DNA of 64,000 nucleotides from Eunapius fragilis (taxonomy: Eukaryota; Porifera; Demospongiae; Spongillida; Spongillidae): the NCBI GenBank assembly GCA_963681505.1, contig OY811990.1, forward strand, positions 4,045,165 to 4,109,164, read 5' to 3'. The translations under genes and the position numbers were made by a program. Under the pieces are notes generated by a model that was not told the origin of the DNA, ran no database searches, and was given only the letters and a program-made list of their open reading frames with translations. Below are positions 7,517-60,934 of this stretch, piece after piece. How positions within the stretch are numbered: the first letter of the stretch is position 1; the number at the start of each line of letters is the position of its first letter.

Positions 7517-10040
7517 ATGTCAACCCAAGTTCAACACAACAGCATGTTATCTGTACAGCGACCGACGTGTGTGCTGTGCCATAATGATCTCGATCCTGGT
7601 GAACCACTTTGTGACGAGTGTGGAGCAGACCAAAAATCGGGCCGAGTGACGTTGAAATCGTCCAAGCACGATGACACGTGTAGTAGCAGGTAAAGCACGA
7701 ACACACATATACCGGCCGTGTTTTTATTATTAAATTAGTACGCTACTAAAACACATAGCGGTTATACTGCAGATTAGATACCCCCCTCGCTCCCAGGGCG
7801 ATCAGCAATAGACACATCATATGTGTACATGTATTGCCTAGTAGATCTTTCTCGAACGTCCATTATTCTTCCACAGGTCTGGCCTCTTTCCGCCACACAC
7901 CATATGTCAGCTGTGCTCTAAGCCCTACACAGACCCTAGGATCCTTCCATGTCTACACTCTTTCTGTGGGCAGTGTCTGCATATGGAGATAGAGAGGTCT
8001 GGGGACAAGCAGAAGATGGAGTGTCCTACCTGTCAGAGAAGTATCACCATACCAGAGGGTGGAGTCAATGCTATACCTCAGAACCTCCATCTTGGCTTTG
8101 AGGTGGAGGTGGCTGGGTACATGTCCAAGATTGGCAGTGGTGGTGAAAAGTCATGTGATGCTTGTATTGATGGGGGCAAGGGGCCTGCAGTGGTGTTCTG
8201 TTGTACATGTGGTCAGTTCCTCTGTACCTTATGTCATGAACACCACAAACACAATAAGATATTCCATCATCACCAGATGGTAGGACTAGACCAGGAGTCT
8301 GTCAGACTACTTCCATCCATCATGACTTCAACTGAACAGCATCATCATGAAACAAAAATCTATTGTGAGACCTGCCAGTGTCTGGTCAACAGAGACTGTG
8401 CCCCAGTTCTTCATAACCAACACAGGTTTGCTGATGTGTGTAATATTGCAAAGGTCTACAGAGATGAAATGAGAGAAGCACTTGTGTGTGCACAAGAAAT
8501 GACCTCAAAGCTGACCAGTGCCATTGGTAATAAAGACAAGATGGCAGAACAGGTTGAGACTTCCAGAGAGAATGCCACACTGCTCATTAACCAAGCCTTT
8601 GAACAGCTCCACCAAGCCATAGAGGAAAGGAAGAAGACACTGTTGTCAGAGATGGAGGTCATTACACTTTCTAAGACGACAGCTATGTCCCTTCAGAAGG
8701 AACAGTTAGTGAAGATACAAGATGAGATTGGTCGCTACACTGAGATGACCTCCCACATCCTCCAGACCCACACTGACCATGAGATGTTAGCTCTTGGAGA
8801 TCTTCTACCCACTGAACTGAAGGCCACCCTGAAGAAGGTTGAGGGAGTCTCCCTCTCTACCAGTGACATACATGTGACCCTACAAACTGATATTCTGATG
8901 AAGGAACTGGCCATATTTGGTCATGTAATGGCCTCACCTCCATCTCCATCACAAAGCACATGGTCATCTAAGTCAGCAGCCAGGATGGACATGATGTATA
9001 GTGTAAAAGTGGAGACCAAGAGCTCAGAGGGAGAGAGGTACCCATATGGTGGTCTGCAGGTGAAGGCTGAGCTGAGGCCCAAGTCACATGATGGAGCAGT
9101 TGTCCCAGGAAAGGTGGAGGACCATGGAGATGGTTCCTACACCATCACCCTCACCCCTCAGGCTGCTGGTCCTCACCAGCTCCTTATCACAATGGATGGT
9201 GAACATGTACAGGGCAGTCCTCATGACCTAAATGTGAGGCCTAGCTACAGCACCTTATATAACCCCCAGCAAGTTATCAGTTGTAGGGATTGTCCAGATG
9301 GTATAGCCATCCATTGCAGTGGAGACATCTATGTAACCTGTTGGGTTGACGACCGTATTCGTGTGTTTGACCAAGGTGGTTATGAGAAGAGAACCATAGG
9401 TTGTCTTGGGAGTGGTGATGGTCAATTCAGCGGACCACATGGTATATCCATCAAGGGAGATGTGATGTATGTTGCTGATCAGGGCAATCATCGCATTCAG
9501 AAGCTGACAACAGGAGGACAGTTCCTACAAAAGTTTGGCCAACATGGATCAGGTCAGGGACAGTTTTATGGACCAACATCAGTTATTGTTGACCAAAGAG
9601 ATAGGATGATTGTTGCTGACAGTGACAACCATAGGGTAGTGATATTGGATCAAAATGGCAGCTGGTTATTGACCATAAATGGTAATGTCTCTGGTGCTCA
9701 GGGTTTTAAGGATCCATGGGGTCTTGCTTTGGACCCTCAAGGGAACATCCATGTTGCAGCCTTTGGTTCTAACACCATCATTGTCTTCACACCAGAGGGG
9801 ACCTATGTCAGATCATATGGAGCTGTTAAGGATCCAACTGGAATAGCAATTGATGAAGAAGGTTACAGCCTTGTCTGTGAGTGCAGAGGCAATTGTCTCT
9901 CCATCTTTGATCCTCAGGGAAACAAGATCTACACAGTTGGCAATCTCAATGCACCCCGTGGTATTGCTCTGGATCCTATAAGTGGTAGTCTGTATGTAGC
10001 CAACTGTGGTGCTAACACTGTATTGAAGTATTCCGTGTAG
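7517..10040 (+). CDS. TRIM-NHL protein, copy 1 (two exons, intact)
   Basis: Exon 1 is 7517-7689 and exon 2 is 7877-10040, joined by a 187-bp GT-AG intron that splits an Arg codon, giving 778 residues. Order: CxxC...CxxC cluster (C18, C21, C32, C35); RING C3HC4 (C68, C71, C83, H85, C88, C91, C107, C110); B-box 1 (about 151-190); B-box 2 (about 211-242, Cys kept at 232); coiled coil (about 250-380); filamin/ABP280 repeat (about 430-512); six NHL blades (523-778). Such proteins are usually RING E3 ligases whose NHL propeller binds RNA or protein. The start is supported by the conserved TATA spacing and by exon 1 being 173 nt in copies 1-5. Blade residues at the binding face differ from the other copies. 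Confidence 0.9.
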
Positions 10041-10400
10041 TGATGATGCAATGATGATGTAGTGTTAATACATAACATGAATGTTGCTATGGCAACAGAG
10101 GAGGGTTTTATCATGATGTATGTTCAGTCCACATGACCTAGGCCTAGCTATGTAACCCCCTGCAAGTGATGATGTAATGATGATGTAGTTTACATAAGGC
10201 ATGAGGTGTGGGTATGCAAGGTTTGGATCATGTGTTGCTATGGCAACAGAAGATGATTTGAAGCTCTGGTCAGATGTAACCTTTTGAGTAAATCAGTCTG
10301 TAAGGAAGCAAAACGTATTGAAGTCCCAGTCTGCCCCAAGGAAGCCAGCTGATCAATATCATACAACACCAGACAGTCCACAGCAGAGGGGTGTGACCTG
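10041..10400. other. TRIM copy 1 3' flank with coding relic and X-box-like palindromes
   Basis: Two GTTGCTATGGCAAC palindromes (10083-10096 and 10234-10247) resemble the RFX X-box. Between them, about 10120-10165 matches the coding junction of the filamin and NHL regions (CACATGACCTAGGCCTAGCTATGTAACCCCC), so it is a relic of a second partial TRIM copy. The same layout follows copies 4, 5 and 6. Confidence 0.55.
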
Positions 10401-10525
10401 GCTAACCAAATGTCCCCTGCAGTGTCACTGCCTGCACACAACCCCCACACAACCCTAAGTACCAGTGGTATAAAGATTGAGTTCCCAGTCTGTTCCTGTG
10501 ATATCATGGTTGGTGGTCCCTACAG

Positions 10526-10987: not shown

Positions 10988-11059
10988 CCATATGCTCACA
11001 TCAGTAAATCATCTCAGTAAACCAATGGTGCTGTACATAAGTCTTGTTTGGGTGTGCTT

Positions 11060-11222
11060 TTATGTAGAGCATGTGTCCAGGCAGGATTTCTCTGTGGTAA
11101 ACCTGTTGTCATTGCTAAGGCAACCTCCATACATGAATACATCACACTGCGATGTGGTAGGGTTGTAAGTGAACATTCTGATCTCAACACTGCATGGACC
11201 AGGGTCCTGTTTCAGATGGCAG

Positions 11223-11224: not shown

Positions 11225-11284
<60 letters not shown>

Positions 11285-11300
11285 TGTGTGTGTGTGTGTG
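11225..11300. repeat. (TG)n microsatellite at the Kunitz splice acceptor
   Basis: About 28 TG dinucleotides, then a TAG interruption and about 9 more. On the - strand this is (CA)n followed directly by the AG acceptor of the Kunitz exon. Equivalent tracts lie at 22120-22172, 38519-38587, 54621-54708 and 62174-62231. Confidence 0.95.
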
Positions 11301-14065: not shown

Positions 14066-16961
14066 CTAGACTCCATCTTGAGAGCTTGGCTCACGTAGCT
14101 TGTCGAGCCACTCGAGTGCTCTATGATCAGTTTGTGTCACAAAAGGTCTGCCCAGGAGGTATACCCTAAACACCTGCGTGGACAGCTTTGTGGCCAAGCA
14201 CTCATTCTCAACTGTAGTGTATCTCTGCTCTCTTGGGAGGAGTTTCTTACTGTAATAGGCGACTGGGTGGTCTGACCCTGTGTCGTCTATTTGGCTCAGA
14301 ACTGCACCAACACCAAACTCAGATGCATCCGTTTGCAAAGATAAACTCTTTCACAAGGTCTGGACTCCGTTATACCGGGTTAGCACACAGCAAGGCTTTC
14401 AACCTCTGGAACGCTTCTTTGCACTCCTGGGTCCACACAACTTTGTTAAGGATACATTTCCTGAGTAGGTTAGTGAGAGGTGTAGCAAGACTGGCATAGT
14501 AGGGAATAAACTTTCGATAGTAGCCTGTTAGGCCAAGGAAACACTGCATTTGAGTTTTGGTGGTTGGGGTAGGAAAGGATTCCACACTTTGAAGCTTACT
14601 CCTCTCTGGTTGTATCACTCCATTGCCCACTACATACCCTAGGCAAACACACTTGTCCATGCCAAACTGGCAATTTTTGGGTTTGGTCGTGAGACCTGCT
14701 TCCCGTAGACGTTGTAACACTGTTCTCACATGCTGTAAGTGGTTATCCCAAGAGTCACTGTGGATTGCCAGGTCGTCTATGTAAGCCGCTGAGAAACCTT
14801 GTAGACCTTCCAGTACTGTGTCCATCAAACGTTGTAATGTTGCTGGACAACCTGTCAGGCCAAAGGGCATCACTCGAAATTGATACAAGCCAAAGAGCAT
14901 AGTGAGTGACGTCAAGTGTCTGGCTCCTTCTGCCATTGGCACCTGCCAGTAACCTCGAGAGAGATCCAATGTTGTGATAAACTTGGCTTTGCCTAGTCCA
15001 TCGATGAGATCCTCAATTCTGGGCATGGGGTAGCCATCCGACAAAGAAGCAGCATTCAGCCTCCTGTACTCCACACACACATACACATGGTACTGTCCTT
15101 TTTGTTCACAAGGACAATGGGAGCAGTCCATTCACTCCTTGATGGTTCGATAATACCTGCTACCTGTATATCATCGATTTCCTTCCTCACCAATTCACAG
15201 TAGGCATGTTGAAGTCTGTAAAGAGCGAGCCTGATGGGTTTGGAATCTGTAGGCCTGACATTGTGTTCTGCCATGGTTGTGCGTCCTGGTGCACTGTTCA
15301 TGACATCTCGGAACTCGTGTAGCAGTCCCAGCAGTTGTTCCAATTGTGCCACTGCTACCCATTCTGGATTCACCGACCTCCCCTCCTCTCCATTCAGGGA
15401 TATCTTCCTCTTCAGCCTCTTCCTCCACACCTCCTGCTGAGAAATATGCTCTGATATGAACTGGTGTACATGTAGAAGTTGATAAATCTCAAACAATAGC
15501 TGGGACATAAAGTTGCTGTCTTGGTCTGTGAGGATTTTTTCAGGTATCCCCACCCTCGCAAAGATTTGCACCAGTTCCTCGGCAATGCACTCTGCGTCTA
15601 TGGCTTTCACTGCCACCACTTCTGAATATCTCATGGCATAGTCACACAGCACTAGGATGTACCTCTTCCCAGAAGTCGTCCTCGGCAATGGTACAACGAT
15701 ATCCAATGCCACCCTTCGAAATGGTTCTGTGACAATTGGAAGTGGGATGACAGGGCCCAAGTCACCCTATCCTTTGAAGACTTTTGACACTTTCGGCAAC
15801 ACCTACAAAATTCTTCCACGTCTTTGTACAGAGTCGGCCAGTAGAACCTTTGAGTGATCTGTTTGGCAGTTTTGTGCTTCCCCAAATGTCTAGCCATCGG
15901 CACCTCATGTGCCAACTGTAACACGGCCTTCCGGCATTTAGTGGGTATAACCGAGTTGATCCACTGCATACTCTGGTCCACGATCCTGGGGGATCCATCT
16001 CCGATACAACAGACCTTTGTCTAAGGAGTAGTGTGTATTGCTGCTGTCTGTTCCTGTGGTTATCAGGCTCTACTGAGAAGGATCTGAATTAAGCAACTGC
16101 TTCAATTCACCAGCAGACATGTCCAATGGGCCACCACTTAGACACTTGGCTTCTAAGGATCCACGTAAGTTTATGACTTGCCCGACCTCCAGCAAACAGA
16201 TCGTTATCCATGTTGTAGAGATAGGTTCAGAGCTCTGCTGCCCCACAACCTTCTCTTCACAGAGAGGTAACCTCCTTTTGTCGGCAAAGCTCCTCTTCTT
16301 GCTACCTAGTGCCAGCTCTCATCACCACCATCATCGCTCCATGTCTACCATTCTCTCCAAACGTTGGTGATTTAACTGCTACACTAGCAGTCTTCCAAGT
16401 TTAGGGACTTCGGTCCCTAACAAATCGGATACTGGCAGACACTGCTGCTTTTACCGACACTGGGACACCATCAACCTCCAGTTTAAGGTCAGCGACATAT
16501 ATGGTAAAGCAGTGTCCCCATGATCACAATGAATTGTAGCAACCTCTCCAGATCACACCTTGCGTTCTGGAACCAGTTTGTGATGGACAAGGGTCTTTGA
16601 ACATCCCATATCCAAAAGGATGTCTTTGACGTACTTCCCTTCTACCCCACCGCTCCTTTCCAACGTTGAGTCATGTGCATCCTCAGCCCGCAGTACAATG
16701 CCTTGTTTGAACACCTCGACGTGATGTGGCCACGATTGTTGCAGTTGTAACATGTCACGTGTGAATCTTCACTCCTCCATCTCTGCCCTTGTTTACGGCT
16801 GTCCTTGTTGCTCTTCCTTTCACTGGTTGAACCTCATCTGGGGTTGGTGTACTTGACTTTCCCGTGATGGGTCTGGTACGTAGATGTGATGTGGGCATGG
16901 AGACACTTGTAAATAATCCTTTAAACAAAAGGTTCACCTTTAATATAAAAGACATCATCAT
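14066..16961 (-). pseudogene. Gypsy-like retrotransposon with integrase before RT (Gmr1-like), copy A
   Basis: Read on the - strand the order is: gag with a CCHC knuckle (about 16690-16760), protease (about 16610-16650, where the catalytic DTG is DMG), integrase zinc finger (15980-15850, H/H/C/C), integrase core (15760-15460), reverse transcriptase (about 15400-14370, with AAYIDDLAIHS) and RNase H (14338-14066, QTDASEFGVGAVLSQ). Integrase and the start of RT lie in one uninterrupted frame (15760-15056), so INT precedes RT. That order is known for Gmr1-type gypsy elements, whereas ordinary gypsy elements have RT-RH-INT. The integrase lacks its third acidic residue through an internal deletion, and there are several frameshifts. 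The copy is dead. Confidence 0.8.
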
Positions 16962-17487: not shown

Positions 17488-19975
17488 ATGTCAACCCAAG
17501 TACAACACAACAGCATGTTACATGTACAGCGACCAACGTGTGGGCTGTGCCAAAACGATCTCGATCCTGGTGAACCACTTTGTGACGAGTGTGGAGCGAA
17601 CGAAAAATCGGGCCGAGTGACGTTGAAATCGTCCAAACACGATGACATGTGTAGTAGCAGGTAAAGCACGAACACACATACACCGGCCGCGGGTTTTTAT
17701 TATTAAATTAGTACGCTACTTAAACACATAGCACGCTCCCAGGGCGATCAGCATATGTGTACATGTATTGCCTAGGCAGTAGATCTTTCTCAAACGTCCA
17801 TTATTCTTCCACAGGTCTGGGCTCTTCCCTCCACACACCATTTGTCAGCTGTGCTCTAAGCCCTACACAGACCCTAGGATCCTTCCATGTCTACACTCTT
17901 TCTGTGGGCAGTGTCTGCATTTGAGGATAGAGAGGTCTGGGGACAAGCAGAAGATGGAGTGTCCTACCTGTCAGAGAAGTATCACCATTCCAGAGGGTGG
18001 AGTCAATGCTATACCTCAGAACCTCCATCTTGGCTTTGAGGTAGAGGTGGCTGGGTACATGTCCAAGATTGGCAGTGGTAGTGAAAAGTCATGTGATGCT
18101 TGTATTGATGGGGGCAAGGGGCCTGAAGTGGTGTTCTGTTGTACATGTGGTCAGTTCCTCTGCACCTTCTGTCATGAGCACCACAAACGCAATAAGATAC
18201 TCCATCATCACCAGATGGTAGGTTTAGACCAGGAGTCTGTCAGACTACTTCCATCCATCATGACATCAACTGAACAACATCATCATGAAAAAAAAATCTA
18301 TAGTGAGACCTGCCAGTGTCTGGTCAACAGAGACTGTGCCCCAGTTATTCATAACCAACACAAGTTTGCTGACATTTGTAATATTGCAAAGGTCCGCAGA
18401 GATGAAATGAGAGAAGCACTTGTGTGTGCACAAGAAATGGCCTCTAAGCTGACCAATGCCATTGGTGACAAAGACAAGATGGCAGAACAGGTTGAGACTT
18501 CCAGACAGAATGCCACACTGCTCATAAATCAAGCCTTTGAACAGTTCCACCAAGCCATAGAGGAAAGGAAGAAGACACTGTTGTCAGAGATGGGGGCCTT
18601 TTCACTTTCCAAGACAACAGCTATGTCCCTCCAGAAGGAACAGTTAGTGAAGATACAAGATGAGATTGGTCGCTACACTGAGATGACCTCCCACATCCTC
18701 CAGACCCATACAGACCATGAGGTGGTAGCTCTTGGAGATCTGCTACCCACTGAACTGAAGGCCACCCTGAAGAAGGTTGGGGGGGTCTCCCTCTCTACCA
18801 GTGACATACATGTGACCATACAAACTGATTCTCTGATGAGGGAACTCTCCATATTTGGTCATGTAATGGCCTCACCTACATCTCCATCACAAAGCACATG
18901 GTCTTCTAAGTCAGCAGCCAGGATGGACATGGTGTATAGTGTAAAAGTGGAGACCAAAAGCTCAGAGGGAGAGAGGTACCCATATGGTGGTCTGCAGGTG
19001 AAGGCTGAGCTGAGGCCCAAGTCACATGATGGAGCAGTTGTCCCAGGAAAGGTGGAGGACCATGGAGATGGTACCTACACCATCACCCTCACCCCTCAGG
19101 CTGCTGGTCCTCACCAGCTCCTTATCACAATGGATGGTGAACATGTACAGGGCAGTCCTCATGACCTTGATGTGAGGCCTAGCTACAGCACCTTATGTAA
19201 CCCCCAGCAAGTTATCAGTTGTAGTGGTGGTTCGAAAGGAATAGCCATCCATGACAGTGGAGACATCTATGTAGCCTGTGGTGATAACAGTATTCATGTG
19301 TATGACCAAGGTGGTCATGAGAAGAGAACCATAGGTAGTGGTGGGAGTGGTGACGGTCAATTCATTGGACCACATGGTATATCCATCAAGGGAGATGTGA
19401 TGTATGTTGCTGACTATGGCAATGATCGCATTCAGAAGCTGACAACAGGAGGACAGTTCCTACAAAAGTTTGGCCAACATGGATCAGGTCAGGGACAGTT
19501 TGATGGACCAAGATCAGTTATTGTTGACCAAAGAGATAGGATGATTGTTGCTGATAGTGGCAATGACAGGGTAGTAGTATTGGATCAAAATGGCAGCTGG
19601 CTATTGACCATAAATGGTAATGTCTCTGGTGCTCAGAGTTTTAAGAATCCACGGGGTCTTGCCTTGGACCTTCAAGGGAACATCCATGTTGCAACCTTTG
19701 GTTCTAACACCATCAAAGTCTTCACACCAGAGGGGACCTATGTCAGATCATATGGAGATGTAAAGGGTCCATCTGGAATAGCAATTGATGAAGAAGGTTG
19801 CAGCCTTGTCTGTGAGCACAGAGGCAATTATCTCTCCATCTTTGATCCTCAGAGAAACAAGATCCACACAGTTGACAATCTCAGTGTACCCTGTGATGTT
19901 GCTCTGGATCCTATAAGTGGTAGTCTGTATGTAGCCAACTATGGTGCTAAGACTGTATTGAAATATTCTATGTAA
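17488..19975 (+). CDS. TRIM-NHL protein, copy 2 (two exons, intact)
   Basis: Exon 1 is 17488-17660 and exon 2 is 17815-19975 (intron 154 bp, same phase as copy 1), giving 777 residues. The CxxC cluster, RING, both B-boxes (Cys kept in B-box 2), coiled coil, filamin repeat and six NHL blades are all present. CLHM of the RING region reads CLHL here, which confirms that the true start is in exon 1. At the NHL face this copy is distinctive: GSKGI in blade 1, DGPRS in blade 3, FKNPR in blade 4 and VPCDV in blade 6. It ends KYSM, where the other copies have KYSV. Confidence 0.9.
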
Positions 19976-23474: not shown

Positions 23475-25989
23475 ATGTCAACCCAAGTACGACACAACAG
23501 CATGTTACCTGTACAGCGACTGACGTGTGTGCTGTGCCAAAATGATCTTGATCCTGGTGAACCAATTTGTGACGAGTGTGGAGCGGACCAAATACTAGGC
23601 CGAGTGTCGTTGAAATCATGCAAGCAAGATGACGCGTGTAGTAGCAGGTAAAGCACGAACACACATATTCAGGCCCCTTGCTTTTATTGTATTTTAAAAA
23701 AATTAAATGATTACTGCGCTACTTAAACACGTAGCACGCTCCCAGGGCGATCAGCAATAGACACCCATATGCGTATATATACATGTATTACCCATTCATC
23801 CATGTTTACTGTTCCACAGGTCTGGCCTCTTCCCTCCACACACCATATGTCAGCTGTGCTCTAAGCCCTACACAGACCCTAGGATCCTTCCATGTCTACA
23901 CTCTTTCTGTGGGCAGTGTCTGCATGTGGAGATAGAGAGGTCTGGGTCCGACAAGCACAAGATGGAGTGTCCTACCTGTCAGAGAAGTATCACCGTACCA
24001 GAGGGTGGAGTCAATGCTATACCTCAGAACCTCCATCTTGGCTTTGAGGTAGAGGTGGCTGGGTACATGTCCAAGATTGGCAGTGGTGGTGAAAAATCAT
24101 GTGATGCTTGTATTGATGGGGGCAAGGGGCCTGCAGTGGTGTTCTGTTGTACATGTGGTCAGTTCCTCTGTACCTTCTGTCATGAGTACCACAAACACAA
24201 TAAGATATTCCATCATCACCAGATGGTTGGACTAGACCAGGAGTCTGTCAGACTACTTCCATCCATCATGGCATCAACTGAACAACACCATCATGAAACT
24301 AAAATCTATTGTGAGACCTGCCAGTGTCTGGTCAACAGAGACAGTGCCCCAGTTCTTCATAACCAACACAGGTTTGCTGATGTGTGTAATATTGCAAAGG
24401 TCCGCAGAGATGAAATGAGAGATGCACTTGTGTGTGCACAAGAAATGACCTCAAAGCTGACCAGTGCCATTGGTGACAAAGACAAGATGGCAGAACAGGT
24501 TGAGACTTCCAGAGAGAATGCCACACTGCTCATTAACCAAGCCTTTGAACAGCTCCACCAAGCCATAGAGGAAAGGAAGAAGACACTGTTGTCAGAGATG
24601 GAGGCCATTTCACTTTCTAAGACAACAGCTCTGTCCCTCCAGAAGGAACAGTTAGTGAAAATACAAGATGAGATTGGTCGCTACTCTGAGATGACCTCCC
24701 ACATCCTCCAGACCCACACTGACCATGAGGTGGTAGCTCTTGGAGATCTGCTACCCACTGAACTGAAAGCCACCCTGAAGAAGGTTGAGGGAGTCTCCCT
24801 CTCTACCAGTGACATACATGTGACCCTACAAACTGATTCTCTGATGAAGGAATTCTCCAAATTTGGTCATGTAATGGCCTCACCTCCATCTCCATCACAA
24901 AGCACATGGTCTTCTAAGTCAGCTGCCAGAATGGACATGATGGTTAAAGTAAAAGTGGAGACCAAGAGCTCAGAGGGAGAGAGGTACCCATGTGGTGGTC
25001 TGCAGGTGAAGGCTGAGCTGAGGCCCAAGTCACATGATGGAACAGTTGTCCCAGGAAAGGTGGAGGACCATGGAGATGGTACCTACACCATCACCCTCAC
25101 CCCTCAGGCTGCTGGTCCTCACCAGCTCCTCATCACAATGGATGGTGAACATGTACAGGGCAGTCCTCATGACCTTGATGTGAGGCCTAGCTACAGCACC
25201 TTATGTAACCCCCAGCAAGTTATCAGTTGTAGGAGTGGTCCAAATGGTATAGCCATCCATGACAGTGGAGACATCTATGTAGCGTGTTTGGATGACTGTA
25301 TTCATGTGTTTGACCAAGGTGGTCATAAGAAGAGAACCATAGGTAGTGGTGGGAGTGGTGATGGTCAGTTCTGTGGACCATTTGGTATATCCATCAAGGG
25401 AGATGTGATGTATGTTGCTGACACTGGCAATGATCGCATTCAGAAGCTGACAACAGGAGGACAGTTCCTACAAAAGTTTGGCCAACATGGATCCTGTCAA
25501 GGACAGTTTAGTTATCCAGTATCAGTTATTATTGACCAAAGAGATAGGATGATTGTTGCTGACAATAAAAACCATAGGGTAGTAATATTGGATCAAAATG
25601 GCAGCTGGCTATTGACCATAAATGGTAATGTCTCTAATGCTCAGGGTTTTAAGGATCCAAGGGGTCTTGCCTTGGACTCTCAAGGGAACATCCATGTTGC
25701 AGCCTGGGGTTCTGACACCATCAAAGTCTTCACACCAGAGGGGACCTATGTCAGATCATATGGAGATGTAATGGGTCCATCTGGAATAGTAATTGATGAA
25801 GATGGTTACAGCCTTGTCTGTGAGAACAGTGGCAATGGTATCTCCATCTTTGATCCTCAGGGAAACCAGATCCACACAGTTGGCAATCTTAATGAACCCC
25901 ATGGTCTTGCTCTGGATCCTTTAAGTGGTAGTATGTATGTAGCCAACTGTGGTGATTACATTGTATTGAAGTATTCTGTGTTGTTGTGA
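23475..25989 (+). CDS. TRIM-NHL protein, copy 3 (two exons, intact)
   Basis: Exon 1 is 23475-23647 and exon 2 is 23820-25989 (intron 172 bp), giving 780 residues. All domains are present. B-box 2 has Ser in place of the Cys ligand (NRDSAPVLHN). A codon is added after ERSG (SDKHK). The stop of the other copies is read through by a TAG to TTG change, so the protein ends SVLL. NHL face residues include PNGI, CGPFG, SYPVS, NKNH, FKDPR, NSGNGI and NEPHG, which is the most divergent set of the six. Confidence 0.9.
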
Positions 25990-45453: not shown

Positions 45454-48400
45454 TCACTTGTGACATCTCACTGATCTTCTGGGATTCCCTGGACCATACT
45501 CTGTGCCGGTTGGCATGCGGGGGTTTCGAGTAGATTTCTTTGGCAGACCTTGAGGTAAGGAAGGGATCGGAAGTTCTGGGTCTGCAGCCTTTGCTCCCTC
45601 TTCTGACTGTGCTGTATTCTCTGAGGGCTGGTTACCGGTTTCCAGTGTGGGTGAGGATGTTGGAGGTTCCCCAGGGTCGGTATCTTCATTTGCACCATAC
45701 CTTGGCCTGAGCTGTTCGATATGACGTCGCCATGTACCCCCTTTTGGAAATACTCGAACATTCACACTGCGGGTCCCAAACACTTTGGTGACAACAGCTG
45801 GCACCCATCTAGGGTCCTTGTCCCTTCGTGGACCACAGTACAGCGCATAGCATGGGCTTCCGACCTTGTAAATGTGATGAACTGTTGCCTGGTTACTGAT
45901 CTCCTCTGCCTGTGATTTTGTGGCTTCCCTGGCTTGCCTCCCTTGAAAGATATGTGCCGGTGAAGGGAGGAGAATGTCAATTTTGCTCCTTATTTGACGC
46001 CCATTGAGGAACTCGCTCGGGGAATATCCCACTGCCAGAGGGGTCCGACGGTACTGCATGAGAAACTCTTGAAGTGCAGTCTTAGGTGGGAGTGAGGACT
46101 TAACAAGAGCTTGTTTGAAAGTCTGCACGAGACGCTCGGCTGCTCCATTTGTGGCTGGGTGGTAGGGTGCACCTGTGAGGTGAATAATGCCCCTCTCCCG
46201 ACACCATGCTTGAAACTCCTCCGAAGAGAATGATGTAGCATTGTCTGAGACGATTGTGTGCGGGTACCCAAAATGAGCGAAGTCCTGTTCCAGCAAGTCT
46301 GTGGTGGCTTTGGTTGACGTTGAAGTAGTAGGATGGATACATGGGTATTTGGAATAGGCGTCCACCAGTACCAACCAGTTGGTTCCCAGAAAATTAACTG
46401 CATGATCCACATGGATTCGGCTCCACGGCTTCTCTGGTAGCATCCAAGGGTGATTAGCAGGTTTGGCTGGTTTGGTTTGGTGTTCTGCACAGGTTTGGCA
46501 CCGATGACATTGGTTTGTAATGTCTGTGTCAATCCGTGGCCAGTATACTGCTGTGCGGGCCAGTTGTTTCATCCTTTGGATTCCAAAATGACCCAAATGA
46601 AGGAGTTCCAGGACTTGTGGCTGAAGACTGGGTGGGATGACAACTCTATTCCCATGAAGAAGACATCCATGCACTGTAGAAAGTGACATTGCAAGCTTCC
46701 TGAACTGTTCCACCGAGTAGTCCTTTGCTTGGTCATCTGGTTTGACTTTTGCTGGCCATCCTTCTCTGCAGTACCGCATCACACTTGAAATTACTGGGTC
46801 CTTGGCAGACTCTTTCGCCAAAACACCTGGATCAGATGGGTTTAACTGAAGACTGATGACTCTGATAGTGCATACCGTGTCAATGTCTGCCTCACTTTCC
46901 TCCCCATCAAAAGTGTGGTCTGGCCCAGCTGGAAGGCGACTGAGTACATCTGCATTACCATGGTCTGCAGTTCTTCTGTACTCGATGGAATAGTCGTATT
47001 GGCTGAGCATCAGCGCCCATCTTGCTAATCTGTTTGCAGCCAGTGCTGGAGTTGCTTTAGAGGGACCAAATAACGCTATCAGAGGCCTGTGATCGGTCAC
47101 CAGGATGAAATGTCGACCATAGAGAAATTGGTGGAATATCTTGAGGGCGAAGATGATAGCCAGGGCTTCCTTTTGAATCTGGCTATATCGACGCTGAGTG
47201 TCTGTAAGAGTCTTAGAAATGTTGGCGATTGGACGTTCACTATCATCTGCATAGCGGTGGAATAGAACTGCTCCAAGACCAACTTCTGAAGCATCACAGG
47301 ATACCCCGACAGGGAGTGACGGGTCAAAGTGGGCAAGAACTGTATCAGCACAGAGCATGTCCTTCAGCTTCTGGAATGTTGCCTGTTCTTCCGCACCCCA
47401 TTTCCATTGGATTTCCTTCTTGGTTAACCGGTAAAATGGTTCCGTGGTGGTGGCCAGATTGGGTAGGAACTTATTGTAGAACTGGACAGATCCAAGAAAA
47501 GAGCGTAGAGTTGTGACATCTGTAGGAGGTGGCATCCTCACAATTGCGTCAACTTTGTGTCCCTTTGCAATACCTTGGTTAGAGATCATGAATCCCAGGT
47601 ACTCAACAGATGGTTGTGCAAAAGAACATTTCTCTAAGCGACACCTCAGCCCTTTTTCTTGCAGTCGTGAAAACAGTGCCCGAAGGTTTTGGAGATGGTC
47701 TGAAGCGGAGGCACCACTGACAAGAATGTCATCCAGGTAGACAATGACACCCTGAAGGTCTGCTGTCAGTTTGTCCATGACTTCCTGAAAAAACCCTGGA
47801 GCAGAGCTGATGCCAAAAGGAAGTCGACATTGCAGCAACACACCTCTATGAGTGCTGAGAGCTAGTCGTTTCTGACTTTCTGGGCCCAACTTGATTTGGT
47901 TATACGCGTCTGCCAGATCCACCTTTGAAAATCCGTAGCCACCAGACAGCTTCCGCATTAAATCCTCAGGAAGAGGCATAGGATAGCGGTGAGTCTCCAG
48001 TTGTGAATTGACAGTCACTGAGTAGTCTCCACACACTCGTATCTTTGCTGGCTGACCCGGGGCACTTTTCTTCCGAATTGGAACAACTGGTGTACCGTAA
48101 TCATTGAACTGAACGGGCTTCCACACTCCTTTAGCAATTCCTGCGTCATAAGCTTGGTTCAGGTCGTCCTGAATTGCGAATGGAACTGGACGTGGCTTAC
48201 GGAAGATTGGTGCAGCATCTTCCTTGAATTTCACTTCCAGTTCGAAACCTTCCAAACACCCTAGTTCTTGTTTGAAGAGATCCGGAAATTCTTCGCAGAG
48301 TCCTTTACATGCCATTTGAAGAGCTACATCTGGCTTGAGGTTGTCGAAGATAGGTTCGACCACTTTGTGGTCATCTTGCCTGTCCTTCGAAGGGACTCGT

Positions 48401-49689
48401 GCAAGTAGAAGGGCTTGAACGTTGATACCAAGCTTGACAATGGCATCCCGGCCTAATAAGTTCAGTCGTGGAGAATTGGTGACAGTGAAAATGAGTGTGG
48501 TGTCCTTTGAATCTTCTCCCTGCAGTGAGGTGACTGCTTCAAAGGTACCCAGGGTGTGCAGAGGCTGGCCGTTGGCCACTTCATAGCGACATGTGGGCGG
48601 CTTGAGGGACGGTTTCCCAAGTTTCCCCCAGAAGTCTTCAGAGCAGAAATTGTCTGCCGCACCAGTATCCACTTCAAAGATGAAGACCTGGCCCTGGATC
48701 CAAACCTGCTGTTCAAGTTGCGGAACTGAACTGATACTATTCACTGTCTTGAACTCCCGTCTGGTGATGATCTTCACTGGTTGAGTACCCTTTCTCTTCT
48801 GGAGACATGCACTCTCAATATGCCCCAGTTTCTGACAGAAGTGACAGGTGCTGGTCTTGAATGGACAGTCCTTTGATGCATGTTCTGTCTTGCCACACCT
48901 GGGACAGGTTCCCTTTGGAAAATCTCTTTTTCTGTGACTACCAAACTTGGAACTCGGGTTTGGATTGGCTGGATAAGGCTTCTTAGTAGCTTGGATCTTA
49001 TGAACAGCTGTCTGCTTAGCCCCATATACCGTCTCCTTTGCAACCCTGGCAGCGTCTTCAGTCTCTACTGCGGTTGAAATAGCCTTGGCAAAAGTGAGCT
49101 CACTGTCCTTCACTTTGAAGAGAGCCTTGAGAACTGCTTCGTTATTGACCGAGCACATGAAACGCGTGCGCATGGCTTCATCAAGAGGGTCTGTGATTGA
49201 AGGAAAATCGCACGTCACAGCGTCTTGGCGAATTCTCGCGGCGAGTTCGTGTATCGTCTCCCCGGGCTTACGCTGCATCTCGGACCAGAATTTGAAGCGT
49301 TCTCTGACTATGTACCTTGAAGGATCGAATTGGCTCTTCATGAAGTCTGTGATTTCGTCGATTGTGAGGTCGTTGATGCCTTTTGATGGCGACTGTTGCG
49401 AAGCGAGGTTACACAGCAACTTGTAGGTTACCTTAGATTGGCTCGTAAGGAAAACCTGCGCGGTTTTGTCTTCCGGTACCGAGTTTGCCCCAATGAACGT
49501 ATGGAACCGTGCCAGATAGTCCGTCCATAGCTCCGATGTCGAGTCGAATGGTGGGAAGGTAGGGAAGGAAGTTGCGGGCATGGGCTTACTCAGTCCTTTA
49601 GCGATTGCTGCGACGAGCGCTTCTGTTTGTTCTCGCTGTGAGTCCATCTGCCGCTGGAAGAGCTTGATAAGTTCGCTTAGTTCTGCCAT
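45454..49689 (-). CDS. Gag-pol polyprotein of the intact gypsy element, 1411 residues
   Basis: A single unbroken frame. Gag occupies about residues 1-240, with two CCHC zinc knuckles (CPRCGKTEHASKDC at 262-275 and CHFCQKLGHIESAC at 282-295). The protease has EVDTGAADNF (DTG at 341-343). Reverse transcriptase follows with VYLDDILVSG, then RNase H with VTDHRPLIALFG, then integrase with an HHCC finger (HLGHFGIQRMKQLA ... CHRCQTCAEH) and the acidic triad in HVDHAVNF, IVSDNATSF and NGAAERLVQTF. The order PR-RT-RH-INT is that of ordinary gypsy elements. Gag and pol are fused without frameshift. All visible catalytic residues are present, so the element is likely functional. Confidence 0.95.
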   Translation of the reverse strand: MAELSELIKLFQRQMDSQREQTEALVAAIAKGLSKPMPATSFPTFPPFDSTSELWTDYLARFHTFIGANSVPEDKTAQVFLTSQSKVTYKLLCNLASQQSPSKGINDLTIDEITDFMKSQFDPSRYIVRERFKFWSEMQRKPGETIHELAARIRQDAVTCDFPSITDPLDEAMRTRFMCSVNNEAVLKALFKVKDSELTFAKAISTAVETEDAARVAKETVYGAKQTAVHKIQATKKPYPANPNPSSKFGSHRKRDFPKGTCPRCGKTEHASKDCPFKTSTCHFCQKLGHIESACLQKRKGTQPVKIITRREFKTVNSISSVPQLEQQVWIQGQVFIFEVDTGAADNFCSEDFWGKLGKPSLKPPTCRYEVANGQPLHTLGTFEAVTSLQGEDSKDTTLIFTVTNSPRLNLLGRDAIVKLGINVQALLLARVPSKDRQDDHKVVEPIFDNLKPDVALQMACKGLCEEFPDLFKQELGCLEGFELEVKFKEDAAPIFRKPRPVPFAIQDDLNQAYDAGIAKGVWKPVQFNDYGTPVVPIRKKSAPGQPAKIRVCGDYSVTVNSQLETHRYPMPLPEDLMRKLSGGYGFSKVDLADAYNQIKLGPESQKRLALSTHRGVLLQCRLPFGISSAPGFFQEVMDKLTADLQGVIVYLDDILVSGASASDHLQNLRALFSRLQEKGLRCRLEKCSFAQPSVEYLGFMISNQGIAKGHKVDAIVRMPPPTDVTTLRSFLGSVQFYNKFLPNLATTTEPFYRLTKKEIQWKWGAEEQATFQKLKDMLCADTVLAHFDPSLPVGVSCDASEVGLGAVLFHRYADDSERPIANISKTLTDTQRRYSQIQKEALAIIFALKIFHQFLYGRHFILVTDHRPLIALFGPSKATPALAANRLARWALMLSQYDYSIEYRRTADHGNADVLSRLPAGPDHTFDGEESEADIDTVCTIRVISLQLNPSDPGVLAKESAKDPVISSVMRYCREGWPAKVKPDDQAKDYSVEQFRKLAMSLSTVHGCLLHGNRVVIPPSLQPQVLELLHLGHFGIQRMKQLARTAVYWPRIDTDITNQCHRCQTCAEHQTKPAKPANHPWMLPEKPWSRIHVDHAVNFLGTNWLVLVDAYSKYPCIHPTTSTSTKATTDLLEQDFAHFGYPHTIVSDNATSFSSEEFQAWCRERGIIHLTGAPYHPATNGAAERLVQTFKQALVKSSLPPKTALQEFLMQYRRTPLAVGYSPSEFLNGRQIRSKIDILLPSPAHIFQGRQAREATKSQAEEISNQATVHHIYKVGSPCYALYCGPRRDKDPRWVPAVVTKVFGTRSVNVRVFPKGGTWRRHIEQLRPRYGANEDTDPGEPPTSSPTLETGNQPSENTAQSEEGAKAADPELPIPSLPQGLPKKSTRNPRMPTGTEYGPGNPRRSVRCHK

Positions 49690-49697
49690 GATAGTTG

Positions 49698-49715
49698 ATC
49701 CTGCCGACTACGCCA
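49698..49715 (-). promoter_or_regulatory. Primer binding site matching tRNA-Ser
   Basis: On the - strand, eight bases inside the 5' LTR, lies TGGCGTAGTCGGCAGGAT. It is the reverse complement of an 18-nt 3' end ATCCTGCCGACTACG plus CCA. That is the end I know for animal tRNA-Ser (AGA type), whose acceptor stem begins GTAGTCG. The match ends after 18 bases. It primes minus-strand cDNA synthesis. Confidence 0.8.
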
Positions 49716-51062: not shown

Positions 51063-53569
51063 ATATCAACCCAAGTACAACACAACAGCATGTTACCTGT
51101 ACAGCGACTGACGTGTGTGCTGTGCCAAAATGATCTCGATCCTGGTGAACCACTTTGTGACGAGTGTGGAGCAGACCAAAAATCGGGCCGAGTGACGTTG
51201 AAATCATCCAAGCACGATGACGCGTGTAGCAACAGGTAAAGCACGAACAAAGATATAGTATATACCGGCCGCGTGTTTTTATTGTTAAATTAGCGCACTA
51301 CTAAAACACATAGCACGCTCCCAGGGATCAGCACTAGACACATCATATGTGTACATGTGTTGCCTAGTAGATCTTTCTCGAACGTCCATTATTCTTCCAC
51401 AGGTCTGGCCTCTTCCCTCCACACACCATATGTCAGCTGTGCTCTAAGCCCTACACAGACCCTAAGATCCTTCCATGTCTACACTCTTTCTGTGGGCAGT
51501 GTCTGCATATGGAGATAGAAAGGTCTGGGGACAAGCAGAAGATGGAGTGTCCTACCTGTCAGAGAAGTATCACCATTCCAGAGGGTGGAGTCAATGCTAT
51601 ACCTCAGAACCTCCATCTTGGCTTTGAGGTGGAGGTGGCTGGGTACATGTCCAAGATTGGCAGTGGTGGTGAAAAGTCATGTGATGCTTGTGTTGATGGG
51701 GGCAAGGGGCCTGCAGTGGTGTTCTGTTGTACATGTGGTCAGTTCCTCTGTACCTTCTGTCAGGAGTGCCACAAGAGAAATAAAATATTCTATCATCACC
51801 AGATGGTTGGACTAGACCAGGAGTCTGTCAGACTACTTCCATCCATCATGGCATCAACTGAACAACATCATCATGAAAGTAAAATCTATTGTGAGACCTG
51901 CCAATGTCTGGTCAACAGAGACAGTGCCCCAGTTCTTCATAACCAACACAGGTTTGCTGATGTGTGTAATATTGCAAAGGTCCGCAGAGATGAAATGAGA
52001 GAGTCACTTGTGTGTGCACAAGAAATGACCTCTAAGCTGACCAGTGCCATTGGTGACAAAGACAAGATGGCAGAACAGGTTGAGACTTCCAGAGAGAATG
52101 CCACACTGCTCATAAACCAAGCCTTTGAACAGCTCCACCAAGCCATAGAGGAAAGGAAGAAGACACTGTTGTCAGAGATGGAGGCCATTTCACTTTCCAA
52201 GACAACAGCTATGTCCCTCCAGAAGGAACAGTTAGTGAAGATACAAGATGAGATTAGTCGCTACACTGAGATGACCTCCCACATCCTCCAGACCCACACT
52301 GACCATGAGGTGGTAGCTCTTGGAGATCTGCTACCCACTGAACTTAAGGCCACCCTGAAGAAGGTTGAGGGAGTCTCCCTCTCTACCAGTGACATACATG
52401 TGACCTTACAAACTGATTCTCTGATAAAGGAACTCTCCATATTTGGTCATGTTATCAACTCACCTCCATCACAAAGCACATGGTCTTCTAAGTCAGCAGC
52501 CAGGATGGACATGGTGTATAGTGTAAAAGTGGAGACCAAGAGCTCAGAGGGAGAGAGGTACCCATATGGTGGTCTGCAGGTGAAGGCTGAGCTGAGGCCC
52601 AAGTCACATGATGGAGCAGTTGTCCCAGGAAAGGTGGAGGACCATGGAGATGGTACCTACACCCTCACCCTCACCCCTCAGGCTGCTGGTCCTCACCAGC
52701 TCCTCATCACAATGGATGGTGAACATGTACAAGGCAGTCCTCATGACCTTGATGTGAGGCCTAGCTACAGCACCTTATGCAACCCCCAGCAAGTTATCAG
52801 TTGTAGGGGTGGTCCAAAAGGTATAGCCATCCATGACAGTGGAGACATCTATGTATCCAGTTGGAATGATAACTGTATTCATGTGTTTGACCAAGGTGGT
52901 CATGAGAAGAGAACCATAGGTAGTCTTGGGAGTGGTGATGGTCAGTTCAGTGAACCATGTGGTATATCCATCAAGGGAGATGTGATGTATGTTGCTGAAT
53001 ACGGCAATGATCGCATTCAGAAGCTGACAACAGGAGGACAGTTCCTACAAAAGTTTGGCCAACATGGATCAGGTCAGGGACAGTTTAATGGACCAGCATC
53101 TGTTATTGTTGACCAAAGAGATAGGATGATTGTTGCTGACAGTGACAACCATAGGGTAGTGATATTGGATCAAAATAGCAGCTGGCTATTGACCATAAAT
53201 GGTAATGTTTCTGGTGCTCAGGGTTTTAAGGGTTTTAAGGATCCATGGGGTCTTGCCTTGGACCCTCAAGGGAACATCCATGTTGCAGCCTATGGTTCTG
53301 ACACCATCAAAGTCTTCACACCAGAGGGGACGTATGTCAGATCATATGGAGATGTAAAGGGTCCAACTGGAATAGCAATTGATGAAGAAGGTTACAGCCT
53401 TGTCTGTGAGCACAGAGGCAATTGTCTCTCCATCTTTGATCCTCAGGGAAACAAGATCCACACAGTTGGCAATCTCAATACACCCCGTGGTATTGCTCTG
53501 GATCCTATAAGTGGTAGTCTGTATGTAGCCAACCGTGGTGCTAACACTGTATTGAAGTATTCTGTGTAG
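51063..53569 (+). CDS. TRIM-NHL protein, copy 5 (normal ATG lost, promoter displaced)
   Basis: Exon 1 is 51063-51235 and exon 2 is 51403-53569 (intron 167 bp). The codon in the start position is ATA instead of ATG. The frame upstream is open into the transposon end and has an ATG at 51003; the next internal ATG is Met10 (51090). Either would keep the CxxC cluster. RING, B-boxes (Ser in B-box 2, HEHHK changed to QECHK in B-box 1), coiled coil, filamin repeat and six NHL blades are intact, about 779 residues from the ATA. A 6-bp deletion removes two residues before the filamin repeat, and a 9-bp tandem duplication (GFKGFK) lies in blade 4. The native promoter is 8 kb away, so expression is doubtful. 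Confidence 0.75.
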
Positions 53570-57920: not shown

Positions 57921-57944
57921 TTATTATTATATATCAAGACATCA

Positions 57945-58260
57945 TCATTTAACTAGTATTAAGAAGGAGTAGATCTATTGATGGGGGTAAGGGGCCTGCA
58001 GTGGTGTTCTGTTGTACATGTGGTCAGTTCCTCTGCACCTTCTGAGTACCACTGGAGCAGTAATAGTCCAGGTGAGACCAAGGCAAGGAGTCACACACAG
58101 TACATTAGTAAGACTTGTGAGCCTACTTGGTACTTAATTTCTAGACCTGCTTACTCAGGTACTAATTTTACCTACCATCATATGAGATTAACTTGATACA
58201 GAATTCTTGGGTTGAATGGCTTATAATTATTTGAAACGTGCACAATCCCAGCTATGGACC
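57945..58260. other. Unit 6 upstream flank with B-box relic
   Basis: The B-box 1 relic (about 57975-58045) and the conserved flank (TTTTACCTACCATCATATGA) precede the proximal promoter block at 58262 on. Confidence 0.65.
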
Positions 58261-58393
58261 AGTTACTGGTCACTGGGTGTTGATACATTACATCATTCGC
58301 TGCAATAGCACGCGCACAGAAGTGATAAATGGACAGGGCTTGAATATACCTGTTTAGAACCAATTTAAAACCGGTTTTTCTATTTTTCCAGGG

Positions 58394-58400
58394 TATAAAA
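58394..58400 (+). promoter_or_regulatory. TATA box of TRIM copy 6
   Basis: TATAAAA about 41 bp before the ATG at 58441, inside the conserved proximal block (CTGGGTGTTGATACATTACA to GGTTTTTC). Confidence 0.55.
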
Positions 58401-58440
58401 ACACGTCTAATATGAAATTTATCCGCAAAGTTCTTTAGTG

Positions 58441-60934
58441 ATGTCAACCAAAGTACAACACAACAGCATGTTACCTGTACAGCGACTGACGTGTGTGCTG
58501 TGCCAAAATGATCTCGATCCTGGTGAACCACTTTGTGACGAAGACCAAAAATCGGGCCGAGTGACGATATCATCCAAACACGATGACACGTGTAGTAGCA
58601 GGTAAAGCACGAACACACATATACCGGCCGTGTTTTTATTATTAAATTAGTACGCTACTAAAACACATAGCACGCTCCCAGGGCGATCAGCAATAGACAC
58701 ATCATATGTGTACATGTATTGCCTAGTAGACCTTTCTCGAACGTCCATTATTGTTCCACAGGTCTGACCTCTTCCCTCCACACACCATATGTCAGCTGTG
58801 CTCTAAGCCCTACACAGACCCTAGGATCCTTCCATGTCTACACTCTTTCTGTGGGCAGTGTCTACATATGGAGATAGAGAGGTCTGGGGACAAGCAGAAG
58901 ATGGAGTGTCCTACCTGTCAGAGAAGTATCACCATACCAGAGGGTGGAGTCAATGCTATACCTCAGAACCTCCATCTTGGCTTTGAGGTGGAGGTGGCTG
59001 GGTACATGTCCAAGATTGGCAGTGGTGATGAAAAGTCATGTGATGCTTGTATTGATGGGGGCAAGGGGCCTGCAGTGGTGTTCTGTTGTACATGTGGTCA
59101 GTTCCTCTGTACCTTCTGTCATGAGCACCACAAACACAATAAGATACTCCATCATCACCAGATGATAGGTTTAGACCAGGAGTCTGTCAGACTACTTCCA
59201 TACATCATGACATCAACTGAAGAACACCATCATGAAACTAAAATCTATTGTGAGACCTGCCAGTGTCTGGTCAACAGTGACAGTGCCCCAGTTCTTCATA
59301 ACCACCACAGGTTTGCTGATGCGCGTAATATTGCAAAGGTCCACAGAGATGAAATGAGAGAAGCACTTGTGTGTGCTCAAGAAATGGCCTCAAAGCTGAC
59401 CAGTGCCATTGGTGACAAAGACAAGATGGCAGAACAGGCTGAGACTTCCAGAGAGAATGCCACACTGCTCATAAACCAAGCCTTTGAACAGCTCCACCAA
59501 GCCATAGAGGAAAGGAAGAAGACACTGTTGTCAGAGATGGAGGCCATTTCACTTTCCAAGACAACAGTCCTGTCCCTCCAGAAGGAACAGTTAGTGAAGA
59601 TACAAGATGAGATTAGTGGCTACACTGAGATGACCTCCCACATCCTCCAGACCCACACTGACCATGAGGTGGTAGCTCTTGGAGATCTGCTACCCACTGA
59701 ACTGAAGGCCACCCTGAAGAAGGTTGAGGGAGTCTCCCTCTCTACCAGTGACATACATGTGACCTTACAAACTGATTCTCTGATAAAGGAACTCTCCAAA
59801 TTTGGTCATGTAATGGCCTCATCTCCATCTCCATCACAAAGCACATGGTCTTCTAAGTCAGCAGCCAGGATGGACATGGTGTGTAGTGCAAAAGTGGAGA
59901 CCAAGAGCTCAGAGGGAGAGAGGTACCCATGTGGTGGTCTGCAGGTGAAGGCTGAGCTGAGGCCCAAGTCACATGATGGAGCAGTTGTCCCAGGAAAGGT
60001 GAAGGACCATGGAGATGGTACCTACACCATCACCCTCACCCCTCAGGCTGCTGGTCCTCACCAGCTCCTCATCACAATGGATGGTGAACATGTACAGGGC
60101 AGTCCTCATGACCTTGATGTGAGGCCTAGCTACAGCACCTTATGTAACCCCCAGCAAGTTATCAGTTGTAGGTGTGGTCCAAGAGGTATAGCCATCCATG
60201 ACGGTGGAGACATCTATGTAGCCTGTTGGGATGACGACCGTATTCATGTGTTTGACCAAGGTGGTCATGAGAAGAGAACCATAGGTAGTTATGGGAGTGG
60301 TGATGGTCAGTTCAGTGATCCACTTGGCATATCCATCAAGGGAGATGTGATGTATGTTGCTGATCGGGGCAATGATCGCATTCAGAAGCTGACAACAGGA
60401 GGAAAATTCCTACAAAAGTTTGGCCAAAGTGGATCAGGTCAGGGACAGTTTAATGGACCAAGATCAGTTATTGTTGACCAAAGAGATAGGATGATTGTTG
60501 CTGACAGTAAAAACCATAGGGTAGTAATATTGGATCAAAATGGCAGCTGGCTATTGACCATGAATGGTAATGTCTCTGGTGCTCAGGGTTTTAAGGGTTT
60601 TAAGGATCCATGGGGTCTTACCTTGGACCCTCAAGGGAACATCCATGTTGCAGCCTGGGGTTCTGACACCATCAAAGTCTTCACACCAGAGGGGACCTAT
60701 GTCAGATCATATGGAGATGTAAAGGGTCCAACTGGAATAGCAATTGATGAAGAAGGTTACAGCCTTGTCTGTGAGCGCAGTGGCAATTGTCTCTCCATCT
60801 TTGATCCTCAGGGAAACAAGATCCACACAGTTGGCAATCGCAATGAACCCTGTGGTATTGCTCTGGATCCTACAAGTGGTAGTCTGTATGTAGCCAACCG
60901 TTGTGCTGACACTGTATTGAAGTATTCTGTGTAG
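58441..60934 (+). CDS. TRIM-NHL protein, copy 6 (two exons, intact; N-terminal cluster damaged)
   Basis: Exon 1 is 58441-58601 (161 nt, 12 shorter than the others, frame kept) and exon 2 is 58762-60934 (intron 160 bp), giving 777 residues. The 12 missing bases are a 9-bp and a 3-bp deletion; the first removes the last Cys of the CxxC...CxxC cluster (CDECGADQ becomes CDEDQ). RING, coiled coil, filamin repeat and six NHL blades are intact. B-box 2 has Ser in place of Cys (NSDSAPVLHN). It shares the 9-bp GFKGFK duplication with copy 5. NHL face residues include PRGI, SDPLG, NGPRS, SKNH, RSGNC and NEPCG. Confidence 0.9.

Follow-up and report, generated by a model that had tools for sequence, protein, structure and literature searches.

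A tandem TRIM-NHL gene family in the sponge Eunapius fragilis with positive selection at top-face codons of the NHL propeller

TRIM71/LIN-41, Brat and Mei-P26 are single developmental regulators, and TRIM56 is, to our knowledge, a single gene that forms no repertoire. TRIM56 is antiviral, and its effect against Zika virus reportedly relies on RNA binding (PMC6623546, in the portion available). In finTRIM and TRIM5alpha, positively selected sites are concentrated in loops of the C-terminal ligand domain (PMC2657112, available portion). Tandem TRIM expansions in general have been noted (PMC3503706, in part) and NHL-repeat orthogroups are expanded in merulinid corals (PMC11639872, in part); the accessible sections of PMC9798719 and PMC8242945 contain nothing on TRIM-NHL arrays, and no report of a positively selected NHL-domain TRIM repertoire was seen among the papers listed in searches of mostly open-access literature. 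Here we describe six tandem two-exon TRIM-NHL genes on the + strand of a 64,000-nucleotide stretch of Eunapius fragilis DNA (the window: assembly GCA_963681505.1, contig OY811990.1, positions 4,045,165 to 4,109,164 of the forward strand, or 4.045–4.109 Mb of what we call contig C20). The codons of the top face of the NHL propeller are, as a class, under positive selection. We consider it roughly 60% probable that the locus is part of a germline-encoded, positively selected, conversion-shuffled repertoire of intracellular TRIM-type E3 ligases, most likely used in defence.

The genome assembly comprises 219 Mb in 24 contigs. A genome-wide match search with the copy 1 NHL domain as query returned at least 142 places, whole or partial (144 match rows less two second pieces of genes already listed). 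At least 121 of these are on the window's chromosome, C20, and at least 120 fall within 3.40–5.95 Mb, an interval of approximately 2.5 Mb; the median spacing of the C20 places is about 10 kb. We read 86 copies, made up of the best-scoring 80 of the 136 places outside the window and the six within it (56 places were left unread), and compared the 64 that are intact, the remaining 22 being dropped for want of a full open reading frame (ORF) or a RING start. The original prediction, made from the window sequence alone, had described six paralogues: all six genes are there, but copy 4 has a disrupted frame and the family extends far beyond these six.

In the 64-copy alignment, residue diversity peaks in the NHL domain at the same two places in each blade: next to the conserved proline with which strand a begins, and in the AD-x-x-N-x-R loop that follows strand b. 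A set of 36 positions was defined by register as P-2, P-1 and P+1 (d-a loop) and x1, x2 and x3 (b-c loop) of the six blades. These positions hold a mean of 7.5 residue types, compared to 2.6 in the rest of the NHL domain, with at least seven types at 22 of the 36, and the set includes 25 of the 36 codons with the greatest replacement difference in the whole protein. The motifs that the original prediction had picked out in copies 1 to 6 are all present: SGPHG/IGPHG/CGPFG/RGPYG/SEPCG/SDPLG in blade 2, ADQGNH/ADYGND/ADTGND/ADFGNH/AEYGND/ADRGND in the loop that follows, YGPTS/DGPRS/SYPVS/NLPIS/NGPAS/NGPRS in blade 3, F/F/W/W/Y/W in blade 4 and NAPRG/SVPCD/NEPHG/NEPCG/NTPRG/NEPCG in blade 6. This pattern exceeds chance. 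The loops of copy 1, in family numbering, are given below; each rests on 64-copy variability and site tests, and the remarks in blade 3 refer to a single site.

9288 to 9299, + strand: blade 1 d-a loop, positions 465–468
9342 to 9353, + strand: blade 1 b-c loop, positions 483–486
9429 to 9440, + strand: blade 2 d-a loop, positions 512–515, SGPH
9480 to 9491, + strand: blade 2 b-c loop, positions 529–532, QGNH
9567 to 9578, + strand: blade 3 d-a loop, positions 558–561, YGPT (site 558 itself not positive)
9621 to 9632, + strand: blade 3 b-c loop, positions 576–579, SDNH (site 579 itself not positive)
9708 to 9719, + strand: blade 4 d-a loop, positions 605–608, KDPW
9762 to 9773, + strand: blade 4 b-c loop, positions 623–626, FGSN
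9828 to 9839, + strand: blade 5 d-a loop, positions 645–648
9882 to 9893, + strand: blade 5 b-c loop, positions 663–666, CRGN
9948 to 9959, + strand: blade 6 d-a loop, positions 685–688, NAPR
10005 to 10016, + strand: blade 6 b-c loop, positions 704–707, CGAN

Silent change had been described as nearly absent; among the five intact window copies it is low but not absent, with a silent difference (pS) of 0.070 at positions 1–460, 0.067 at the other NHL codons and 0.098 at the 36 codons. The replacement difference (pN) at the 36 codons is 0.312. Pairwise pN/pS in these five copies reaches 3.18 there, against 0.67 at the other NHL codons and 0.48 at positions 1–460. Across the 64 copies, the corresponding ratios are 1.79, 0.61 and 0.62. 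A codon model (own script) was fitted on three trees, built from the entire gene, from the scaffold alone and from the NHL codons outside the 36. For the 36 codons, the silent and replacement rates (alpha/beta) were estimated at 1.5/7, 3/15 and 2/10 on the three trees (beta/alpha of 4.7, 5 and 5), and twice the log-likelihood gain over neutrality (2dlnL) was 183, 156 and 134, respectively; beta/alpha was between 0.67 and 1 for the other codon classes. Single-base codon differences, counted without a tree in 23 disjoint close pairs, show a ratio of replacement to silent changes of 133:10 at the top face, 213:102 in the rest of the NHL domain and 511:234 in the scaffold. Individual sites were tested in the manner of fixed effects likelihood (FEL). 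At p<0.05 on the whole-gene tree, positive sites number 21/36 on the top face, 8/218 among other NHL codons and 14/458 in the scaffold; on the scaffold and other-NHL trees, 20/36 are positive in both cases, with 11 and 9 of the 218 and 14 and 21 of the 458. When the site set is slid by one to six residues, the positives drop from 21 to 0–11.

Recombination among copies, which could produce an artefactual class signal, was modelled by simulating 60 data sets in which every blade had its own tree and positive selection was absent. The simulated beta/alpha did not exceed 1.5 and the likelihood ratio (LR) did not exceed 8.1; the observed values, taken for this comparison from the 30 gap-free codons, are 3.0 and 110. 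Two of 20 neutral high-rate simulated sets gave a weak false positive, with LR up to 8.1. We rejected a recombination artefact as the source of the class signal, since simulations without selection fall far below what was observed.

An AlphaFold2 model of the copy 1 NHL domain, made with an alignment of the six window NHL domains, has 24 strands and a confidence score (pLDDT) of 91.7. Among solved chains, it comes closest to zebrafish LIN41 in complex with RNA (6fq3), with a TM-score of 0.90 by query length. Replacement difference is greatest on one side of this propeller: pN is 0.267 in the b-c loops, 0.137 in the d-a loops and, for strand a with its P+1 residue, 0.124, compared to 0.036 in the a-b loops and 0.041 in the c-d loops of the opposite (lower) face, which are conserved. 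The variable sites had been placed on the binding face, and this is borne out in all six blades; a check for variable sites scattered over the fold or gathered on the bottom face found neither.

Fourteen LIN41 residues are named as RNA contacts in the available portion of PMC5908797. By sequence register, all 14 fall in the variable position classes, and none falls at x3. The classes cover 39 of the 254 LIN41 residues compared (three of the 39 owe their inclusion to an additional proline that the pattern picked up), and the hypergeometric probability of the overlap is 4e-13. As the contacts lie in the same position classes, the variable face corresponds to the known ligand face, at least as far as the contacts in that portion go, and this comparison depends less on the choice of the 36-site set. 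The LIN41 contact residues themselves are not kept, and the residues at the contact positions vary among copies. Summed over the 36 residues, net charge spans -4 to +8 (mean 2.2; LIN41 is +5 by the same count), so that a basic top face with conserved contact residues, as in LIN41 and Brat, was not found among these copies. From the loss of contact residues and the range of charge, RNA binding is possible for some copies, without being indicated for every one. Mei-P26 binds RNA although, of the 15 residues with which Brat does so, 11 are not conserved in it (PMC9070667, in part).

The way in which variants are distributed among copies fits gene conversion between paralogues that mixes pieces of the NHL domain. 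Linkage between variable bases falls from a mean r2 of 0.19 within 10 base pairs (bp) to approximately 0.05 beyond 200 bp, a trend that exceeds 200/200 permutations. Once corrected for background, top-face residues are most strongly associated within blades (means of 0.12 to 1.33) and show low association between most blades, blades 4 and 5 being the exception at 0.44. Coupling between blades 1 and 6, which are neighbours in the ring, seemed raised and was gone after background correction. Six pairs picked among those with the most similar scaffolds were compared across the NHL start. In three of them (L021/copy 6, L047/L051 and L018/L036), the difference jumps at this point from approximately 0–3% to 3–12%, and the rise persists without the 36 codons (2.6–5.4% versus 1.1–1.4%); in the remaining three, it is partial or absent. 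Multi-base codon changes point the same way: 70 of 105 in the 23-pair set use codons that other copies also carry, and for these paralogue conversion would be enough.

Several results weigh against reading the locus as a positively selected recognition repertoire, or limit what can be drawn from single sites. The 36-site set was chosen after the original prediction and a variability listing had been seen (and before the LIN41 contact list), which makes the enrichment in site counts partly circular. At a 5% false-discovery cut on the whole-gene tree, only nine sites remain, eight of them in the set: single-site calls are thus weak and the class is strong. The expectation of a ratio of replacement to silent change (dN/dS) above 1 at the variable sites accordingly holds for the class, by several methods, and fails for most sites taken singly. 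A laxer empirical-Bayes rule passes 29/36, but with them, depending on the tree, 31, 47 or 53 sites that do not belong to the set, and the in-set positions 558 and 579 test in the opposite direction under it. In the 12 closest pairs, path-averaged pN/pS at the 36 codons is only 1.95, against 0.90; across pairs up to 0.04 apart, it is 1.95–2.07 versus 0.63–0.90, and up to 0.06 apart 1.79 versus 0.60, which is weaker than the tree-free count. Hypervariability is not general to duplicated NHL genes: three tandem NHL-TRIM genes of another subfamily on contig C11 (L002–L004) are, by eye, near-identical in blades 2–3 and keep their top-face residues there. Constraint on the scaffold appears moderate, given that 22/86 copies have no intact ORF or RING start and that scaffold dN/dS is 0.5–1 depending on the method. 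Silent differences are also raised at the 36 codons. The fitted silent rate is 1.5–2 times that of other NHL codons and 2–3 times that of the scaffold, and the probability of the same residue being encoded by a different codon at twofold codons is 0.106, compared to 0.053. Some extra mutation, or tracts of greater age, may contribute to this.

Loss of intact copies and moderate scaffold constraint would also be expected of a dying tandem family in which duplicates drift and the loops vary because nothing holds them. Copy 4, which is broken, and copy 5, which has no usual start codon, could be counted on the same side. Relaxation, however, caps dN/dS at 1, and approximately 4–5 is observed at the top-face codons; the rest of the NHL domain is at about 0.7, the RING zinc ligands are kept in 64/64 copies and the lower-face loops are conserved. 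Relaxed constraint was rejected for the top face, where dN/dS is well above 1, and as an account of the locus we regard it as distinctly improbable.

Another candidate is a targeted mutational process, such as codon hypermutation or template-directed codon exchange, that would create the diversity and leave selection in a secondary role. Among the codons that differ in 19 close pairs, two or three bases are changed in 67 of 171 on the top face and in 11 of 220 elsewhere in the NHL domain, and this, along with the elevated silent rate and the doubled twofold silent differences, is what such a process might leave behind. The modest rise in silent change is real but far smaller than the replacement excess: relative to other NHL codons, the replacement rate is raised 9–13 times and the silent rate 1.5–2 times, and over all codons the probability of the same residue with a different codon is 0.070 at the 36 sites versus 0.060 in the rest. 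Third positions also change where this alters the residue (TGG/TAT, AAA/AAT), codon tables inspected by eye show no single-base signature such as adenine-only change, and paralogue conversion already suffices for two thirds of the multi-base differences. Hypermutation of the diversity-generating-retroelement type was rejected, there being no adenine-only pattern (by eye) and a silent rise much smaller than the replacement rise. We consider targeted mutation as the primary source of the diversity to be improbable, and gene conversion with positive selection remains the preferred account.

Near-identical copies approximately 55–280 kb apart on C20 (L033/L038, L044/L048 and L071/window copy 3) suggest either that segments were duplicated recently or that the assembly set two haplotypes one after the other. 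Were both haplotypes or misjoined copies present throughout, the family size would be inflated by the assembly. These few pairs and their offsets are what an artefact of this kind predicts; the 60 different 36-residue faces that the 64 intact copies carry, and a scaffold divergence of 3–8% in 1904/2016 copy pairs, spread over many tandem copies, are unlike two haplotypes. An assembly artefact of this extent is extremely improbable.

The family has a predicted TRIM-type E3 ligase architecture, consisting of a zinc-ribbon-like segment, RING, a B-box-like stretch, a presumed coiled coil, filamin and NHL. The original prediction had set the array at 7517 to 60934 of the window, which is correct: 7517 is the exon 1 ATG of copy 1 and 60934 is the end of copy 6. 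Its genes are as follows.

7517 to 7689, + strand: copy 1 exon 1, ATG and zinc-ribbon-like CxxC...CxxC (Pfam DZR, E=0.0012, below cut-off)
7877 to 10040, + strand: copy 1 exon 2, RING, B-box-like stretch, presumed coiled coil, filamin and six-bladed NHL
9276 to 10037, + strand: copy 1 NHL propeller, family positions 461–714
17488 to 19975, + strand: copy 2, intact (exon 1 17488–17660, exon 2 17815–19975)
23475 to 25989, + strand: copy 3, intact (exon 1 23475–23647, exon 2 23820–25989)
34838 to 37323, + strand: copy 4, frame broken (pseudogene or sequence error), NHL part still open
51063 to 53569, + strand: copy 5 (exon 1 51063–51235, exon 2 51403–53569)
58441 to 60934, + strand: copy 6 (exon 1 58441–58601, exon 2 58762–60934)

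Copy 4 has a 10-bp deletion at 35713 (with copy 1 as reference) that shifts the frame upstream of the NHL domain, and copy 5 has ATA at the start of exon 1, where the other five copies have ATG. Exon 1 is 173 nucleotides long, except in copy 6, where it is 12 nucleotides shorter (161). All six window copies match Pfam zf-C3HC4 (RING; copy 4 was scanned in two pieces) and Pfam NHL above cut-off, as well as Pfam Filamin at 47.5–52.5 bits (cut-off 26.9). The B-box-like stretch of copy 1 matches zf-B_box at E=0.00094 and ANCHR-like_BBOX at E=0.00055, neither of which reaches its curated cut-off. Of the features of TRIM class VII (RING, B-box, coiled coil, filamin, NHL), the RING, the filamin repeat and the six-bladed propeller are thus present, and the presumed coiled coil sits where that class would have it. 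No B30.2/SPRY match was obtained in the window copies at E<=0.01, the C-terminus being filamin-NHL. The shared E3-ligase scaffold that had been proposed is supported by the RING architecture and by the eight RING zinc ligands, all of which are kept in 64/64 intact copies, although copies had been counted as intact only if they came close to a motif that contains two of these eight. In the window copies, exon 1 adds the zinc-ribbon-like segment ahead of the RING at the N-terminus, an arrangement that is unusual among TRIM2/3/71-type proteins; the exon 1 pattern was detected in 37/64 intact copies.

Retroelement sequences lie between the genes. A Ty3/gypsy-type element at 45454–49707 (- strand), between copies 4 and 5, has a long ORF with aspartyl protease, reverse transcriptase, RNase H and integrase matches, and overlapping ORFs at 14370–15766 (- strand) resemble, by eye, reverse transcriptase and integrase pieces of a second. 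Tandem repeats occupy 1921–2890 (23-bp unit), 3301–5400 (unit of about 66 bp) and 28365–29390 (27-bp unit); the last array is open and encodes a 9-residue repeat (GALGPDETS-like). Elsewhere in the assembly, the mitochondrial record (C24) has a COX1 that reads TGA as Trp and long spacers beside genes; together with the many SRCR domains of the genome, these features would point to a demosponge, possibly of fresh water.

Taken together, a ligase and propeller frame that stay constant, a ligand face that varies, a high copy number, conversion and positive selection are the signature of a recognition repertoire of the kind reported on B30.2 in finTRIM and TRIM5alpha (PMC2657112, available portion). 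In the mechanism that we propose, the RING-to-filamin scaffold and the propeller frame would stay similar between copies, and a ring of approximately 36 top-face residues (three d-a and three b-c per blade) would be diversified by positive selection, with variants shuffled between paralogues by gene conversion. Each copy would then bind a different ligand through its top face and ubiquitinate or sequester it. With less confidence, we suggest that the ligands may be products of viruses or intracellular microbes and that the array may serve defence, which is, by analogy, the most likely use. The main rival is that the same diversifying selection serves an endogenous role: allorecognition or self-marking, sorting of microbial symbionts, or a large regulon whose copies each track one evolving host RNA or protein, including transposon RNA. 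The selection evidence is identical for both and leaves the kind of ligand unspecified; in LIN41 the matching positions serve to bind host RNA, as far as the available portion of that study describes; and retroelement ORFs sit between the copies. More than 100 copies with a constant effector part would be more like arms-race families, however, and other animals have few developmental TRIM-NHL genes, which are conserved. We regard an endogenous role as possible but rather unlikely. A more specific form of the repertoire would make the NHL top face a modular, evolvable reading head to which every blade supplies one recognition unit, with paralogues trading such units through conversion tracts about the size of a blade. 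The array would then be a heritable library of ubiquitin ligases that read foreign or transposon RNA in a sequence-specific way, with a PUF/PPR-like code carried on a propeller and serving immunity in an early-branching animal; this we hold to be doubtful.

SRCR proteins are mostly extracellular or membrane receptors. Their families resemble the array described here in being large recognition expansions of invertebrates, but the present genes are predicted intracellular E3 ligases. SRCR families are greatly expanded in sponge and sea urchin (PMC10855680, in part). SRCR domains are very numerous in the E. fragilis genome as well, with at least 162 matches.

With TRIM71/LIN-41, Brat and Mei-P26, the family shares its fold (6fq3 being the best match) and, with TRIM71 in particular, the order RING-filamin-NHL. 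Change of the top face between family members was already noted for Brat and Mei-P26 (PMC9070667, available portion); the difference here is that tandem copies within a single genome diverge at these positions, and that positive selection acts on them. If our interpretation is correct, a scaffold best known for developmental RNA regulation can act as a variable recognition domain, and a sponge, an animal without adaptive immunity, would have a large intracellular recognition library. With its constant frame and variable face, the array is also a natural mutagenesis series for ligand choice by NHL domains.

The closest parallel in mode of evolution is with finTRIM, the TRIM-B30.2 family of teleosts, and primate TRIM5alpha, where, in the literature as available, a large or fast-evolving TRIM family has selected loops in its ligand domain. 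The sponge genes show the same features, namely many tandem paralogues and class-level positive selection on ligand-domain loops. The variable domain of finTRIM and TRIM5alpha is B30.2/PRYSPRY, whereas here it is a filamin-NHL propeller diversified at matching positions in six blades. Positively selected TRIM repertoires are already known on B30.2; the present family would be one on an NHL propeller.

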